From a virus: a DNA stretch of 26,336 nucleotides. The DNA is taken from the IMG/VR virus record IMGVR_UViG_3300046167_000128, positions 1-26,336 of that record. One strand, given 5' to 3'. The notes below the pieces were generated by a model that did no database searches, had not been told where the DNA came from, and was given only the letters and a program-made list of their open reading frames with translations. The position numbers and the translations under genes were made by a program. Every line of letters begins with the position of its first letter. Positions within the stretch are counted from its first letter, which is position 1. This document shows positions 7,697-15,700 of the stretch, piece after piece.

Positions 7697-8320
7697 TTAA
7701 ACGCCAACGTGTGCAATCCAAGAATGTATTTTCTTTGTCTGCTCCATACGATCATCAAGCCCATGCGTGCCACCATTCACACGCTTGGTGATGCTAGTAA
7801 TAACTGAATCATTCACACCATCATCAGCCATCTCGAACAAGCCATTGGATTCAAAGAACCACATGGCAGATTCAAATGCATACTCAGTAGCAACAAGATC
7901 AGGGTCAGTCATCACATCAGGCAACCCCATGTCACTAGCAAAAGATCTATAGTTTGCCTTGCCTGTCAACTGGATGAAGCCGCGCCCTACCCAAAGCGCC
8001 CCTTCATTATCCCCATTGCCCATGCGATTAGAGTACACCTTGTTAGCTAGTGCCTCTGGGTTACGCGCATAAGGTGCAGCCGATTCCATAGTTGGAAATC
8101 TCTTAGGCCACACACGCATCATAGACTCAGCAGAGTAATTAAGATTCTCTCTGGTTAAGCGAAACATACCTGACTCATGTGCTGCTTGACCAAGCAGGTG
8201 TGCGCCACGCTTACGATTCAAACCAAAGTAATCAACGATTGCTCTTGCTGTGTTGGGCCCGAAGTTACCATCAGCTGTTGCACCGATACGATCCTGCAAT
8301 ATCTTCATAGCTTCAGTCAT
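7697..8320 (-). CDS. endolysin, GH19 chitinase/lysozyme type
   Basis: Muramidase-like enzyme that breaks peptidoglycan at the end of infection. 207 residues. A short N-terminal part (KILQDRIGATADGNFGPNTA) resembles a peptidoglycan-binding repeat (LQ..G...DG.FGP.T). The GH19 domain follows: LLGQAAHESGMF with catalytic Glu near residue 49, then ESMMRVWPKRFPT, YARNPEALANKVYSNRMGNG and LWVGRGFIQLTGKANY, all signature segments. No signal peptide, so it needs a holin. It overlaps the upstream holin-like gene by ATGA and is the last gene of the late operon. Confidence 0.9.
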   Translation of the reverse strand: MTEAMKILQDRIGATADGNFGPNTARAIVDYFGLNRKRGAHLLGQAAHESGMFRLTRENLNYSAESMMRVWPKRFPTMESAAPYARNPEALANKVYSNRMGNGDNEGALWVGRGFIQLTGKANYRSFASDMGLPDVMTDPDLVATEYAFESAMWFFESNGLFEMADDGVNDSVITSITKRVNGGTHGLDDRMEQTKKIHSWIAHVGV

Positions 8321-8664
8321 TTTTTAAATCCCTTCATGGTACGGATACCAAAGCTTGCAGCTATACTTGCATACAACGACCATTGAAACCACTGCGGTGC
8401 GGCTTCGAGATTAGCAAAGCCCTCCCTCATATAGGGCTGCAGCGGTGGAACAAAAGAACACCCAACGATTGCAATGAAACACACAGTCCAAGCTTCATCC
8501 TTCCAAGAGTTGTCACTTGCTTTGATAGCTGCTTGCTCCCAACTAATCTCACCAGTTGCAATCTTCATATTAGTTTCAGCTTCTGCTTTCTTCACAGCAG
8601 TCTTACCATCAATGTAACTACCAGCTAGGTCAGCTACCTTACCTACTAAACTAAGTCCAAGCAT
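8317..8664 (-). CDS. holin, GTA 3-TM type
   Basis: 115 residues from ATG 8664 (MLGLSLVGKVADLAGSYIDG), preceded by AAGGAAAG; the longer frame start at 8697 lies inside the neighbouring gene. The helical N-terminal part, the segment DEAWTVCFIAIVGCSFVPPL and the C-terminal QWFQWSLYASIAASFGIRTM match the holins found in alphaproteobacterial gene transfer agents and related phages (GTA_holin_3TM). It would form the membrane lesion that lets the endolysin reach the wall. It shares ATGA with the endolysin gene and starts one base after the stop of the EF-hand membrane protein. Confidence 0.75.
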   Translation of the reverse strand: MLGLSLVGKVADLAGSYIDGKTAVKKAEAETNMKIATGEISWEQAAIKASDNSWKDEAWTVCFIAIVGCSFVPPLQPYMREGFANLEAAPQWFQWSLYASIAASFGIRTMKGFKK

Positions 8665-8665
8665 A

Positions 8666-8977
8666 TTACTTTCCTTTCGTAAACGCTGACGCTCCAAAGA
8701 ACGCAGCCACTATGCCAGCAACACTGACAAAATACACACTTGCCATGCTGCCGAGTATCTTAGCAGCCTCAATCAAAGTCAAGAGATCTGCTAGCACCAC
8801 CGCCAAGGGGTATAGGAGCATCCCTGACAGGGCAAACCATGTCATCTTGCGTTGTGCATCCCTTTGAGCGTCTTCGTCCTCTAGCCTACGCTTACGATCC
8901 TCGTACTCAAGAGCATCCCACTCTGCTTTATCTATTGCGCCATCACCATTGACATCAAATTTTTTAAACTCATCCAT
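8666..8977 (-). CDS. EF-hand protein with two membrane helices
   Basis: 103 residues. Residues of about 1-20 (MDEFKKFDVNGDGAIDKAEW) contain a complete EF-hand calcium-binding loop, DVNGDGAIDKAE, with acidic or Asn ligands at positions 1, 3, 5, 9 and 12. A charged helix follows (residues of about 25-45, R, D, E, K rich), then two hydrophobic segments (FALSGMLLYPLAVVLADLL and ASVYFVSVAGIVAAFFGASA). It sits within the lysis genes beside the holin, so a second holin or holin regulator sensitive to calcium is possible. The membrane topology and EF loop are seen; the role is inference. Confidence 0.7.
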   Translation of the reverse strand: MDEFKKFDVNGDGAIDKAEWDALEYEDRKRRLEDEDAQRDAQRKMTWFALSGMLLYPLAVVLADLLTLIEAAKILGSMASVYFVSVAGIVAAFFGASAFTKGK

Positions 8978-8986
8978 GTTATTCTC

Positions 8987-9466
8987 CTAATCAGCCAGAG
9001 GATTATCCAATGCCCTCTGTAATTTATCCATCAACTTATCTTCAAGGTCTTTCATCTCAGCATCTTGATTTGATCGCAAGCGTTCACGTTGCGATTCGAA
9101 TCTAAGATCTGCTGCATCTATCATAGTGCGTACCTTCTCTTCTGTCTTACGCACCAACGACTCAACACGATCCGCTTGCTGCTCAACTCTAAGAAGATCA
9201 TCACGTAAATTATTTTTAATGTCGCGTGTGTACTCAACTGTTTGTTGTACCTGCGCATCCATCAAATCCATTTGCTGTTGGTATTCTCCTAGGTCTAAGC
9301 CAGCTACCTCTTCTATCTTTTGGTACATGACGAACCCACCATACAGGCCAGCAACTACAGTAGATATAAATGTTATGATTGCAAAGACAGACGCAGCTGA
9401 TAGCTTAAAGCCACCAGCACTTACTTTCTTATCAGCAAGACTATCAAATTCTGTTAGGTCTACCAT
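8987..9466 (-). CDS. membrane-anchored coiled-coil protein, lysis cluster
   Basis: 159 residues. One membrane helix near residues 22-48 (SAASVFAIITFISTVVAGLY) follows a short cytoplasmic N-terminus. From about residue 65 to 150 it is highly charged and heptad-like (VQQTVEYTRDIKNNLRDDLL; RVEQQADRVESLVRKTEEKV). The shape, N-terminal anchor plus long periplasmic coiled coil, is that of an inner-membrane spanin (Rz-like). No small lipoprotein partner (Rz1) was found nested inside. It may also be a structural or assembly protein. No database family recognised. Confidence 0.6.
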   Translation of the reverse strand: MVDLTEFDSLADKKVSAGGFKLSAASVFAIITFISTVVAGLYGGFVMYQKIEEVAGLDLGEYQQQMDLMDAQVQQTVEYTRDIKNNLRDDLLRVEQQADRVESLVRKTEEKVRTMIDAADLRFESQRERLRSNQDAEMKDLEDKLMDKLQRALDNPLAD

Positions 9467-9484: not shown

Positions 9485-9856
9485 TCATCCTTGTAAATTT
9501 TTAAGCTGCTCTAATTCATCACGCAACTTTTGTATCTCTAACCTACGCTGTGCTAACTCTACTTGGTATAGATCATCACAGTTAATACGAGACTTAGGTT
9601 TGTCTAGCGGTATAACTATACGTGCATACACACCTATGTCTTTACCTCTGCTGCTTGTCTCTAATCCAGACAACACACCAGTAATACCATACTCAAGGTT
9701 AACACCACCACCTACAGCATTACTACATCGCAAGTTGTTTGCTTGAAAGCTATCTGATTGCCCATTGATAGGTGGACTAGGCAATGACAATGCAAGAGAA
9801 CTACTGTCTGCACATACGCTACTTGCTAATAAATAAAAAATTACTGCAAGTCTCAT
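9485..9856 (-). CDS. secreted protein with C-terminal coiled coil
   Basis: 123 residues from ATG 9856 (MRLAVIFYLLASSVCADSSS), a clear Sec signal peptide with cleavage after VCA; the longer frame start at 9883 would spoil it. The mature part has two cysteines (LRCSN and INCDD), a strand-like middle (GGGVNLEYGITGVLSG; DIGVYARIVIPLDK) and a charged helix at the end (QVELAQRRLEIQKLRDELEQ). ATGA overlap with the next gene upstream. It belongs to the secreted cassette; I do not recognise a named family. Confidence 0.7.
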   Translation of the reverse strand: MRLAVIFYLLASSVCADSSSLALSLPSPPINGQSDSFQANNLRCSNAVGGGVNLEYGITGVLSGLETSSRGKDIGVYARIVIPLDKPKSRINCDDLYQVELAQRRLEIQKLRDELEQLKNLQG

Positions 9857-10236
9857 GCTGGCATCCCATCTAATCGTGAGCAAATCCTAGAAGATACTAA
9901 TGTTTTAGTTTCTCTTTGCCTTCTAATCTTAGAGGTAGTACATACATACACTGCTTCATCTAAGTCTGACTCACGTATGTATACACTAAAGTTCTTACGC
10001 TCTTTGTATCCCACCTTAATGATTCGGTACACAGCAGAGAAGGGAATGCCATCCCAGTTTAAATCATACAGACCTATCTCATAGTAGTTGATCTCTTCCC
10101 TTGAATTAAACAAAGACAGATCAACCTTAACCACACCAGTAACATGTGATGGTTTTACTATAGGATAGGCTGGTGTCATCTCATGTGCAGAGATAGCAGT
10201 TGCCCACCCTAGAAATATAAGTACCTTACTTAGCAA
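9853..10236 (-). CDS. secreted, pilus-chaperone-like small protein
   Basis: 127 residues with a signal peptide (MLSKVLIFLGWATAISAHEM). The mature part reads as a beta sandwich: VVKVDLSLFNSREEINYYEI, LYDLNWDGIPFSAVYRIIKV, KNFSVYIRESDLDEAVYVC, then TSKI. This is reminiscent of the N-terminal domain of periplasmic PapD-type pilus chaperones, though it is shorter (no second domain) and I cannot confirm homology. It overlaps both neighbours by a few bases. The pilin-like protein upstream makes a chaperone-client pair conceivable. Confidence 0.6.
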   Translation of the reverse strand: MLSKVLIFLGWATAISAHEMTPAYPIVKPSHVTGVVKVDLSLFNSREEINYYEIGLYDLNWDGIPFSAVYRIIKVGYKERKNFSVYIRESDLDEAVYVCTTSKIRRQRETKTLVSSRICSRLDGMPA

Positions 10237-12079: not shown

Positions 12080-12274
12080 TTACATTTTCATTAGTACCGC
12101 AACGAGTAGGGTTAGTATTGCTCCTGTTGCTGCAATCATAATGCTTTCCATACGTTTAACTCGACCAAATAGATCTTTGAATTGTATCTTAACTTCTGTT
12201 TTAATTGCAACCACCTGCTTTTCTAATGTGTCAAGCCTGTCATGCGCAGAAGATATAGTTCTTTTGTCACTCAT
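12080..12274 (-). CDS. XhlA-like coiled coil with C-terminal membrane helix
   Basis: 64 residues. A charged heptad segment (HDRLDTLEKQVVAIKTEVKI then QFKDLFGRVKRMES) is followed by one C-terminal membrane helix (IMIAATGAILTLLVAVLM). This layout is that of XhlA-type proteins, small membrane-associated partners of phage lysis or toxin release. It overlaps the upstream small gene. It may add to the lysis system; resemblance is by architecture only. Confidence 0.6.
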   Translation of the reverse strand: MSDKRTISSAHDRLDTLEKQVVAIKTEVKIQFKDLFGRVKRMESIMIAATGAILTLLVAVLMKM

Positions 12275-12756: not shown

Positions 12757-15700
12757 TTATGCTCCTTCTAAAGCTGTAATACGAGCCTCTAGCTCTTGGA
12801 TTGTTTTTACTAATAGTGGTACAAGTTTAGATTGATCTATACCTTGCATTACTGCATTGCCATCATCATCAACTTCGTTGTGTGTACCTGTTACTGCTTC
12901 TGGTACAACTGCTTGTGCTTCATGTGCTAAGAACCCATCGACTGTAGTGTCAGCATCAGCTATAAAGTTAAACCTTGCTGGCTTGAGTTGCTTTAATCTA
13001 GTTGTAGCATCCCATGTGTAATTTACGTTTTCTTTTAGTCGGTAGTCTGATGATGTGTTATATGATGTTGATGATGTATTACAACTTATTGAGCCTACTA
13101 GTCCATTAGAGCTATTTGTCATGTATGCAAAGTAATAGTGTCCATTATATGTACTTTTTGAAGCATAGCAAACATAACTTTCATTCTGTACTTCAACCTT
13201 AATACCGTTGTGGTTGTTTGAGGATTTAACTTGTAAAGCCGCTGGGTTTAAAGCTATAACAATATTTCCTACGTGGTTTATTCTTGTAGTGTTTGCCGAA
13301 TCTATATGCAACCTAGGATTACCATCCCCATCAGACAGCACGATGTTGTTGCTTGAGGTGCGGATGTCTAGGCTGTTTTGGTTGCCGTTGTATGCACCTA
13401 TAAGTGTGTTATTAGCGCCTGTTGTTATTTGATTCCCAGAGTTAATGCCAATAAATGTGTTTTGGTTTGGAGTAGTTAAAGAATATCCAGCCTTACGACC
13501 AATTAATGTATTACTGAGACCAGTAGTATTACTATACCCAGCCTGATACCCAACCGCCGTGTTGTCGCTTGCGGTGGTGTTGTAAACTAACGCATCTCTA
13601 CCTATTGCTACATTATTACTACCAGTAGTGTTTCCATCTAATGCTTGATAACCCAAGGCAGTATTACTACCGCCTGTAGTATTAGATTGTAAAGAGAAAG
13701 AACCAAACCCTGCGTTTTCTGAGCCTGTAGTGTTAAGTTTTAACGAATGATACCCCAAAGCTGTGTTGTAGCTTGCGGTGGTGTTGTTTTCTAGTGCAGA
13801 CATTCCAAGTGCAGTATTGGAGTTACCTGAGGTGTTGTCTTGCAGTGCATTTCTGCCGAAAGCAGCATTATAATTTCCTGTTCTATTATAAAGCATAGAA
13901 TACTGACCGGTAGCTGTATTATCTCCTCCGGTAGTATTATCAAGCAACGACCCCCTACCAATAGCAGTGTTTTCTGAGCCAGTAGTATTATAACGAAGCA
14001 TTATTACCAAACGCATCGTTTCTAGTACCTGTAGTGTTACTACCCAAAGCATAACGCCCAACCGCTGTATTGTCGGAAGCGGTAGTGTTGGACTGTAATG
14101 ACCCTTGACCAACAGCAGTGTTGTAACCGCCTGTAGTGTTGGATAAAAGCGCATCACTACCTACAGCAGTATTTCTAGTACCTGTAGTATTAAGATAAGC
14201 CGCTTGATAACCAACCGCTGTGTTAAAACTTGCGGTGGTGTTGTGCTGTAGTGCCGCCTGACCTAATCCTGTATTTTGATTACCTCCAACATTTAACAGC
14301 ATTGCCGCTGAACCAACTGCTGTATTGTATTGTCCATTTGTATTAGCATTAAGAGATGCGTTACCAAAGGCGGTGTTGAAAGATGCATTAGTATTAGAAC
14401 GCAAACTTAAACGCCCAAATGCACTATTGTACTGACCAGTAGTATTAGAGTAAGCCGCCTCATACCCAACTGCCGTGTTGTTACTTGCGGTAGTATTTGA
14501 GAGCAATGCATTTTGACCAACAGCTACGTTGTTACTACCAGTAGTGTTGTTATATAGAGATTGACCGCCATAAGCGGTGTTAAAGTTTCCTGTTGTGTGG
14601 CTGTAAAGCGCTTTTACACCAAACGCAGTTACCCAAGACCCTGTAGTATTACTATAAGCCGCCTGATACCCAACCGCTGTGTTGTTAGATGCGGTGCTGT
14701 TGAGTAGAAGGGCATCATCGCCAATAGCTGTATTATAAGAGCCTGTAGTATTTAGAAGTAAAGCACCATTACCTAGCGCACTATTTGAAGCTCCGCTTGT
14801 ATTAGTGCTAAGAGCATTTGATCCAATTGCCGTGTTCTTACCACCTGTTAAAGAAGCATCAAGCGAACCATCACCCAACGCCACGTTGTTTGTACCAACA
14901 GGATAGTTACCGTCTAGCTTGATTGTGCCACCGTCTACTGAAACATTACCTGCAACTGTAAGGACCGTCTGTTACGGCTGTGCCTGTTACGTCAATACCT
15001 GTTGATGTTGTGGTTAGTTTTTTAACATCGTTATAATACAAATCAACTGAACCATCAGCCGTTGCAACTAAACCAACTTCACCAGTGTATTTTCCTAAAA
15101 CGACACTATCGCTTCGCATATACAAAGAGCCAGCGCCAGCATCATCAATGAAACTATCAGTCCCATCATGGTAAATCTGTAAGTCAGACCCAGCACCGAA
15201 TATGGCTTTGTCGTTGTCACCGAATGACAAGTTGCCTGTCATTGTGCCGCCAGTTGTAAGCAATCCAGCTGCATTAGTAACGTCAGCAGAGCTTAATGTA
15301 ACAGCACCAGATCTAGTATTGAAAGATGTAACAGCACCAGATGCAGTAAACGCAGCATCATCCCATGCAGAACCATCCCAAATATAAAGTTGGTCTACTC
15401 CAGAGTTCCAATAAATACTACCTGTTGCTAACGCATTGCCATCATTATCAACTGTTGGTGCAACAGATTTACTACCTAAATAAATATCAGTAAATTCATC
15501 TAATGCAGTTTCAGCAGCAGTCTTAGCTGTTTGTGCTGCCTGTTGCAGAAGTAGCAGCACTTGTTGCAGAGTTTGCAGCATTTGTTGCATTTGTTCCAGC
15601 ATTTTGTATAGCAGTTAAATTATCAGTAACATTAGTTAAATCACTTGCAAGAGGTGCAATAGCATTTATAGCTGTAATATTGTTAGCTACATCTGATAAA

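Follow-up and report, generated by a model that had tools for sequence, protein, structure and literature searches.

A conserved EF-hand in a family of small phage membrane proteins, candidates for calcium-regulated lysis

What triggers holins, which time host bursting, is an old question, and a calcium site would offer a handle on it that can be mutated at two residues. The viral DNA analysed here (the window; all 26,336 nucleotides of the stretch taken from IMG/VR record IMGVR_UViG_3300046167_000128) encodes, at 8666-8977, a small membrane protein with a predicted calcium-binding EF-hand, hereafter the EF protein. Does this protein act in lysis, and could calcium regulate it?

The EF protein and its cassette

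The stretch 8666-8977 contains a single gene, an ORF of 103 codons on the minus strand with an ATG start and AGGAG six bases 5' of it; the plus strand across the same positions is interrupted by stops. In the 103-residue product an EF loop (residues 8-19, DVNGDGAIDKAE; 8921-8956, minus strand) is followed by a charged helix and two TM segments. TM1 (residues 48-66; 8780-8836, minus strand), predicted by hydropathy and in the structural model, is continuous with the EF exit helix and contains the invariant P57. TM2 (residues 81-99; 8681-8737, minus strand), predicted by hydropathy, is followed by a short basic C-terminus. Pfam EF-hand_5 matched the protein at E 4.9e-7 (29.4 bits, where 25.9 is required), and the loop has 12 residues with ligand residues at positions 1, 3, 5 and 12 and glycine at position 6. 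Judged from these features, the EF-hand is real and canonical. An earlier note on this DNA, in which no strand was given, had described a complete EF loop fused to a two-helix membrane protein, and both parts of that description were borne out. Pfam matched one stretch of the protein, and one loop is likewise seen in the family representatives inspected, unlike paired EF-hand sensors of the calmodulin type with two loops per chain.

AlphaFold2 modelled the window protein (58 rows) with a mean pLDDT of 85.3 and a pTM of 0.54. Helices were predicted at residues 2-7, 17-65, 69-77 and 79-102. The first two flank the loop as in an EF-hand, and the helix at 17-65 runs unbroken into TM1. The entering helix is short and was modelled with low confidence, with a mean pLDDT of 65 for residues 1-10. 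Modelling of a DC31-type member (pLDDT 72.5) likewise placed a helix at 10-14, the loop and a helix at 24-64, giving the same continuity. The EF protein thus carries the canonical 12-residue loop and ligand pattern of calmodulin and EF-hand_5 proteins but differs from other EF-hand proteins in its one loop, its short entering helix and an exit helix that passes into a TM segment. With a single EF-hand and a short entering helix, affinity may be low. Foldseek of the model against the PDB gave no match at E <= 0.001. A BFVD search returned a single match (A0A516M8G9, 84 aa, E 1.3e-5), and VIA-align gave middling helical matches alone (best Z 6.8), none of them informative.

A simple hydropathy scan found two TMs in 58/58 members; when the threshold is made slightly stricter, the CRP-810 member, outside the 58, shows one. 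K+R residues average 2.8 over the 15 positions preceding TM1, 0.55 in the stretch that separates the TMs and 2.4 beyond TM2. The N-terminal flank is richer in K+R than the inter-TM loop in 58/58 members and the C-terminal flank in 55/58. Because of this distribution, the positive-inside rule predicts that both termini and the EF-hand are cytoplasmic. With this predicted N-in topology, the loop would meet rising Ca2+ if the membrane leaked.

The EF gene is the second of four tightly packed genes, in the order TM-coiled-coil protein, EF protein, phrog_2524 membrane protein and GH19 endolysin, separated by a 9 nt gap, a 1 nt gap and a 4-nt overlap. The earlier note placed it directly upstream of a holin and an endolysin. 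The endolysin half of that claim stands, as the cassette ends in a GH19-type endolysin of 207 aa (7697-8320, minus strand; Glyco_hydro_19 E 7.7e-7, phrog_181 'endolysin' E 4.2e-53), but the neighbour called a holin matches no holin family. This next gene (8317-8664, minus strand, 115 aa) matches phrog_2524 at E 6.3e-28 and falls in the phrog_2524-like neighbour cluster at E 1.8e-48; a simple scan gives it one clear hydrophobic segment. A Pfam search with it gave nothing at E <= 1. In some relatives (such as locus L022) its slot is occupied by GTA_holin_3TM. Comparison of the family TM core with the adjacent phrog_2524-like protein gave a weak hhalign similarity (E 8e-4, probability 24%), and on these profiles an old duplication possibly lies behind the two.

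The preceding gene (8987-9466, minus strand) encodes 159 aa and, by reading, has an N-terminal TM and a coiled coil. It belongs to neighbour cluster 0 (E 1.7e-60), which is found at position -1 in 12/61 family representatives, and matches the Rz-like phrog_214 weakly (E 0.003), making an inner-membrane spanin-like protein possible on sequence grounds. Two genes upstream of the EF gene lies a secreted-type protein, again by reading, of 132 aa (9485-9883, minus strand; phrog_37374 E 7.7e-8). It falls in cluster 5 (E 4e-61), present in 8/61 loci, seven times at position -2. Several relatives show this arrangement too, with a secreted-type, coil-ending protein and then a TM-coiled-coil gene ahead of the EF gene; together the two proteins may form a spanin-like pair of two components that has so far escaped recognition. 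A protein annotated as putative lysozyme (CRP-207 gp73; L083:3292-3873) clusters with the TM-coiled-coil type of 8987-9466, and its label is probably wrong.

Conservation and context across the family

Two scans of viral contigs yielded, among the matches listed, at least 591 and at least 595 confirmed relatives. Queries with the TM region only retrieved 308 DC31-type, 53 CRP-810-type and 567 CRP-1-type relatives; all these sets may overlap. At most the best 80 loci from each list of relatives were analysed. Among isolate phages, tblastn with the window protein returned 10 records (four of them Melnitz strains and two of them one phage), and CRP-1 and CRP-9 were found with a more distant query. 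All isolate members are annotated hypothetical protein. The EF protein is thus a member of a large unnamed phage family that includes marine and freshwater isolates. A scan of genome contigs gave 16 loci, several flanked by phage genes. A cellular family was considered and rejected, as 15 of the 16 come from binned or MAG assemblies (seven from one) and a weak Leifsonia match (L176) did not hold up against the TM profile.

The TM profile matched 310 of 311 sequences, a set that includes the window and its own copy (L177). Five sequences lack the N-terminus at a contig end; the other 305 loci (210 distinct regions) all carry the EF loop. The loop is also present in members retrieved with TM-only queries, and CRP-1-type loci carry it in 80 of 82 cases (80 contigs and two isolates), the exceptions being L319, which starts inside the loop at a contig end, and L374, which has no ORF in the motif search. 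A strictly kept predicted calcium site therefore recurs in hundreds of viral contigs. In three members (L140, L119 and L075), upstream start codons would allow a long Pro/Ala-rich linker before the EF-hand.

After merging of identical regions that appeared twice, the 305 loci were reduced to 61 representatives less than 80% identical. These were drawn from the best-80 lists and the isolates, so that sampling is uneven, and the window protein itself lies outside them, represented by near relatives. All 61 have D at loop position 1 and E at loop position 12, with D1 encoded by GAT in 41 and GAC in 20, and E12 by GAA in 47 and GAG in 14. Position 3 is N or D in 61/61, position 5 is D, N or S in 61/61 and G6 is present in 60/61, while positions 2, 7, 10 and 11 vary. 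Across all 305 intact loci, position 5 is T in three and G6 is missing from two. In the 62-row alignment of the representatives and the window, whose rows are 28-81% identical to the window protein, D8, E19, D40 and P57 are the only invariant columns; D8 and E19 are positions 1 and 12 of the loop. EF-hand_5 matched 43/62 members at E <= 0.01, and a PDB profile search with the family matched calcium-binding proteins and calmodulin EF-hands (best E 3.3e-9).

These data support strong purifying selection on the predicted EF-hand. A chance match in a membrane protein, conceivable in that the motif is short, is practically impossible: the loop pattern occurs in 60/61 representatives against 0/531 neighbouring proteins (94,340 aa), and the ligand positions are kept in 61/61. 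Glutamate at EF position 12 is the usual bidentate Ca2+ ligand, and the loop very probably binds Ca2+. Its conservation is, however, equally expected of a switch and of a fixed structural site.

Genomic context was scored with profiles built from neighbour clusters and with simple ORF calling, in which some genes were missed or split (e.g. in L155), over flanking DNA that differs in length between loci. On this basis, an endolysin (GH19, GH108 or either of two M15 types) is found in the flanking DNA of 35/61 representatives and an Rz- or Rz1-like spanin in 13/61. Either GTA_holin_3TM (6/61, as the following gene) or a phrog_2524-like protein (10/61) is present in 16/61, and 39/61 have a lysis profile of any kind in the flanking DNA examined. 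In 7/61 the gene lies shortly after a gp51-like gene in a T4-like tail-hub cluster, and the DNA examined around it contains no lysis profile. The remaining 15/61 have neither context, two of which (L110 and L304) end about 300-400 nt past the loop start. Checks of single members identified clusters as Peptidase_M15_3, GTA_holin_3TM, Glyco_hydro_108, Peptidase_M15_4 and Rz-like spanins, and the window's own neighbours belong to the family neighbour clusters. The family tree, built on 107 columns, leaves 24 of 58 inner branches open and allows only rough counts. On it, the 34 rows labelled by endolysin type require at least 13 changes of that type, and the 30 labelled by neighbour type (one of three next-gene types, or the hub context) at least seven. 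In much of the family, comparison of these loci thus supports a lysis-cassette position retained through endolysin replacement.

The isolates illustrate this range of contexts. In CRP-1 and CRP-9 the EF gene lies directly 5' of the annotated endolysin; next comes a lipoprotein-like protein that bears a TM at its C-terminus. CRP-1-type loci have an endolysin match less than 300 nt past the EF gene in 43/78 and anywhere in the flanking DNA in 75/78; the GTA_holin_3TM and phrog_2524-like profiles matched the flanking DNA of none of 80 such loci, CRP-1 and CRP-9 included. Among nine isolate records searched, GTA_holin_3TM was found in one, CRP-810, and in neither CRP-1 nor CRP-9. The freshwater Limnohabitans phage DC31 has the EF gene, an Rz-like protein and an M15-type peptidase in that order, with no 3TM profile in the stretch examined. 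Both DC31-type and marine cassettes repeatedly encode, upstream of the EF gene, a phrog_32327 protein with a C-terminal TM (L182:3438-3920, L311:3227-3688 and others). In HTVC008M and Melnitz the EF gene sits between the gp51-like baseplate hub assembly gene and a large gene, annotated in HTVC008M as a putative tail tape measure. T4 lysis genes are scattered among late genes, and the hub position of these T4-like members is therefore weak evidence either way.

Relatives lacking the EF-hand and known lysis proteins

Homologues without the EF loop were found in Stenotrophomonas phage DLP6, MW202520 and Limnohabitans phage DC33. They have a homologous TM core, with its RRMAW motif, in common with the EF family but have an N-terminus that is short or unrelated. 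The EF-family TM profile matched the three with an hhalign probability of 97% (E 2.9e-11), against at most 2.2% for 20 of 21 neighbour families and 24% for the phrog_2524-like family. The DLP6 homologue (148 aa) lies 3' of the hub assembly gene, and the next gene carries a lysozyme annotation, though by reading it resembles a tape-measure protein. In MW202520 and DC33 the short versions are directly 5' of an Rz-like gene, which by reading embeds an Rz1-like frame, and then an endolysin; MW202520 has an extra small hydrophobic protein before its lysozyme. Among 37 loci of the EF-less type the searched motif was found in 30, mostly close relatives of one another, with an EF loop in 0/30 and an endolysin in the flanking DNA of 28/30. 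Judged from these relatives, the TM core seems to be a membrane protein of lysis cassettes even by itself, and the EF-hand looks like an added module, strictly kept where present. The DC33 record (PQ492659.1, L395) is labelled Inoviridae, yet spans 39 kb with an Rz-like gene and an endolysin, and the label looks wrong.

The EF protein has the shape and place of a holin, being small, with two TMs in 58/58 members, and lying in a cassette with an endolysin in the window, as do members near an endolysin in 35/61 representatives. No known holin profile in Pfam or PHROG matched the EF family over its cut-off, and none of the PHROG families matched by EF members is described as holin. None of 62 members matched GTA_holin_3TM (PF11351) at E <= 0.01, and homology to it was unsupported by hhalign (0.9%); in some relatives GTA_holin_3TM is instead encoded in the same cassette, adjoining the endolysin. 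Phage_holin_3_6 (PF07332) matched 2/62 members (best E 0.0056), and the CRP-1 member scored 15.4 bits against a cut-off of 28.4. T4 holin T (PF11031) had no match in nine isolate records, and the positive control likewise gave none.

Class II holins of the S21 pinholin type, LysF1a and the EF protein are alike in general features, not by direct comparison: all are small, have two TMs, are predicted N-in/C-in and are encoded in a lysis cassette, and to our knowledge no EF-hand occurs in S21 pinholin or LysF1a. Cassettes of class II holins and LysF1a, like those of the EF protein, sometimes hold a second holin-like gene. EFm1 and LysGH15 are reportedly calcium-binding endolysins; there calcium is tied to a soluble lysis enzyme, whereas in the EF family the predicted site is in a membrane protein.

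In F1 mycobacteriophages, the available text reports that a two-TM N-in/C-in protein, LysF1a, and a second protein jointly set lysis, the former being judged not a pure antiholin (PMC13056207). This two-protein system is a precedent for the pairing of the EF protein with its neighbour. For Melnitz, the available account names one lysin-like gene and no holin and suggests that a curli pore acts in the manner of a pinholin; the term EF-hand does not occur in it (PMC9004378). Most CRP-822-type roseophages have a holin gene, according to the part of the source at hand (PMC12629253). No holin annotation is present in the examined record stretches of Melnitz, HTVC008M, CRP-1 or CRP-9, and the titles and abstract starts listed from the open-licence PMC literature contained no report of an EF-hand holin. 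Two candidate models were set aside: PM2 as a calcium-linked lysis case, Ca2+ being cited in the text at hand for entry and not lysis, and the AP1 holin HolAP, described in the accessible text as a one-TM protein of the phage-holin-2_3 type (PMC8879335).

A possible calcium-regulated role in lysis

Taken together, sequence and context suggest that the EF protein probably functions in lysis. Regulation by Ca2+ is quite possible, though we stop short of calling it probable. The reading we favour, which we hold tentatively as it could just as well prove wrong, is that of a holin resembling class II, or of a protein partnering a holin, under Ca2+ control on its cytoplasmic side. The EF protein would be an inner-membrane lysis protein with both termini inside, two TM helices and a Ca2+-binding EF-hand in the cytoplasm. 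It would build up with its loop empty or filled by Mg2+ while cytoplasmic Ca2+ is low, until a first leak, its own or that of a neighbouring 3TM-type protein, admits Ca2+. As Ca2+ is low in the cytoplasm and higher outside, the predicted site would fill at that first leak. In the models the loop caps a long helix that turns into TM1; through this continuity, metal occupancy could act directly on TM1 packing or on subunit assembly. Binding of Ca2+ would then pair the EF-hands of adjacent subunits, which we infer would favour assembly, and lead to abrupt assembly or hole opening.

Where a 3TM-type protein follows, the EF protein is probably its partner or regulator; where no 3TM profile is nearby, as in CRP-1, CRP-9 and DC31, it is probably the holin itself. 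It is a holin candidate for Melnitz, HTVC008M, CRP-1 and CRP-9. It may be the unrecognised holin of the T4-like pelagiphages and Melnitz, and for Melnitz is a simpler candidate than the curli pore. The most specific version, a Ca2+-gated holin in which external Ca2+ passing the first lesion fills cytoplasmic EF-hands and causes all-or-none opening, is rather doubtful; if true, it would couple the lysis clock to membrane integrity. More generally, a role for the site would make calcium a factor in the lysis timing of marine and freshwater bacteria. The earlier note had argued from calcium-rich seawater, a point weakened by freshwater phage DC31, which retains the loop. Its sequence observation was right and is part of a much larger pattern, and the mechanism it proposed, influx of calcium triggering or amplifying lysis, is plausible. 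Several findings count against the favoured reading: no known holin profile matches over its cut-off, seven of 61 representatives lie among hub genes and 15 have neither context, many cassettes hold another holin candidate beside the EF protein, and the EF-less relatives show that the TM core does not need the EF-hand. The single EF-hand, the one TM of the CRP-810 member at the stricter threshold and the weak tree also count against it.

It is also conceivable, if somewhat unlikely, that the EF protein acts in lysis with a merely structural metal site, permanently holding Ca2+ or Mg2+ to cap a helix or pair subunits and sensing nothing. The loop does cap a continuous helix in two models, and a lone EF-hand with a short entering helix, conserved as a fixed site would be as well as a switch, is consistent with this. 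However, E12 in 61/61 suits Ca2+ more than Mg2+, cytoplasmic Ca2+ is normally too low to keep a weak site filled, and relatives occupy the lysis slot without the site. The EF protein could instead be an antiholin-like brake, keeping a neighbouring 3TM-type protein inactive until Ca2+ enters and then releasing it. We regard this as unlikely, as neither neighbour profile occurs in the 80 CRP-1-type loci or the DC31 stretch, even though GTA_holin_3TM or phrog_2524-like proteins lie near the EF gene in 16/61 representatives and the weak profile similarity to the phrog_2524-like family, the best of the 21 compared, allows a duplicated pair. The two-holin-like cassettes of F1 mycobacteriophages also favour a brake, although, in the text available, their two-TM protein is not a pure antiholin (PMC13056207).

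A role outside lysis is also unlikely. The EF protein would then provide a platform at the membrane on which tails or baseplates assemble, or be a virion protein contacting membranes, and its gene would have drifted beside lysis genes among the late genes. Its position in HTVC008M and Melnitz, the seven of 61 representatives with a gp51-like gene just upstream and no lysis profile in the flanking DNA examined, and the EF-less DLP6 relative 3' of the hub assembly gene all point this way. Yet the family is repeatedly linked to four endolysin clusters through many replacements, and EF-less relatives adjoin Rz-like genes and an endolysin. The annotation of the gene after the DLP6 relative as lysozyme also opposes a tail role, though that gene is tape-measure-like by reading, and the scattering of T4's own lysis genes blunts the argument from position.

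Two further observations concern other genes of the window. Small coiled-coil proteins with a C-terminal TM, encoded at 12080-12274 (minus strand) and at L110:2710-2901 in a relative, recur near the lysis cassette; by eye, we take them to be XhlA-like. At 12757-14157 and 13988-14884 (minus strand), two overlapping frames share NTTG-type repeats, which suggests that a frameshift or an error of assembly has split a tail-fibre gene.
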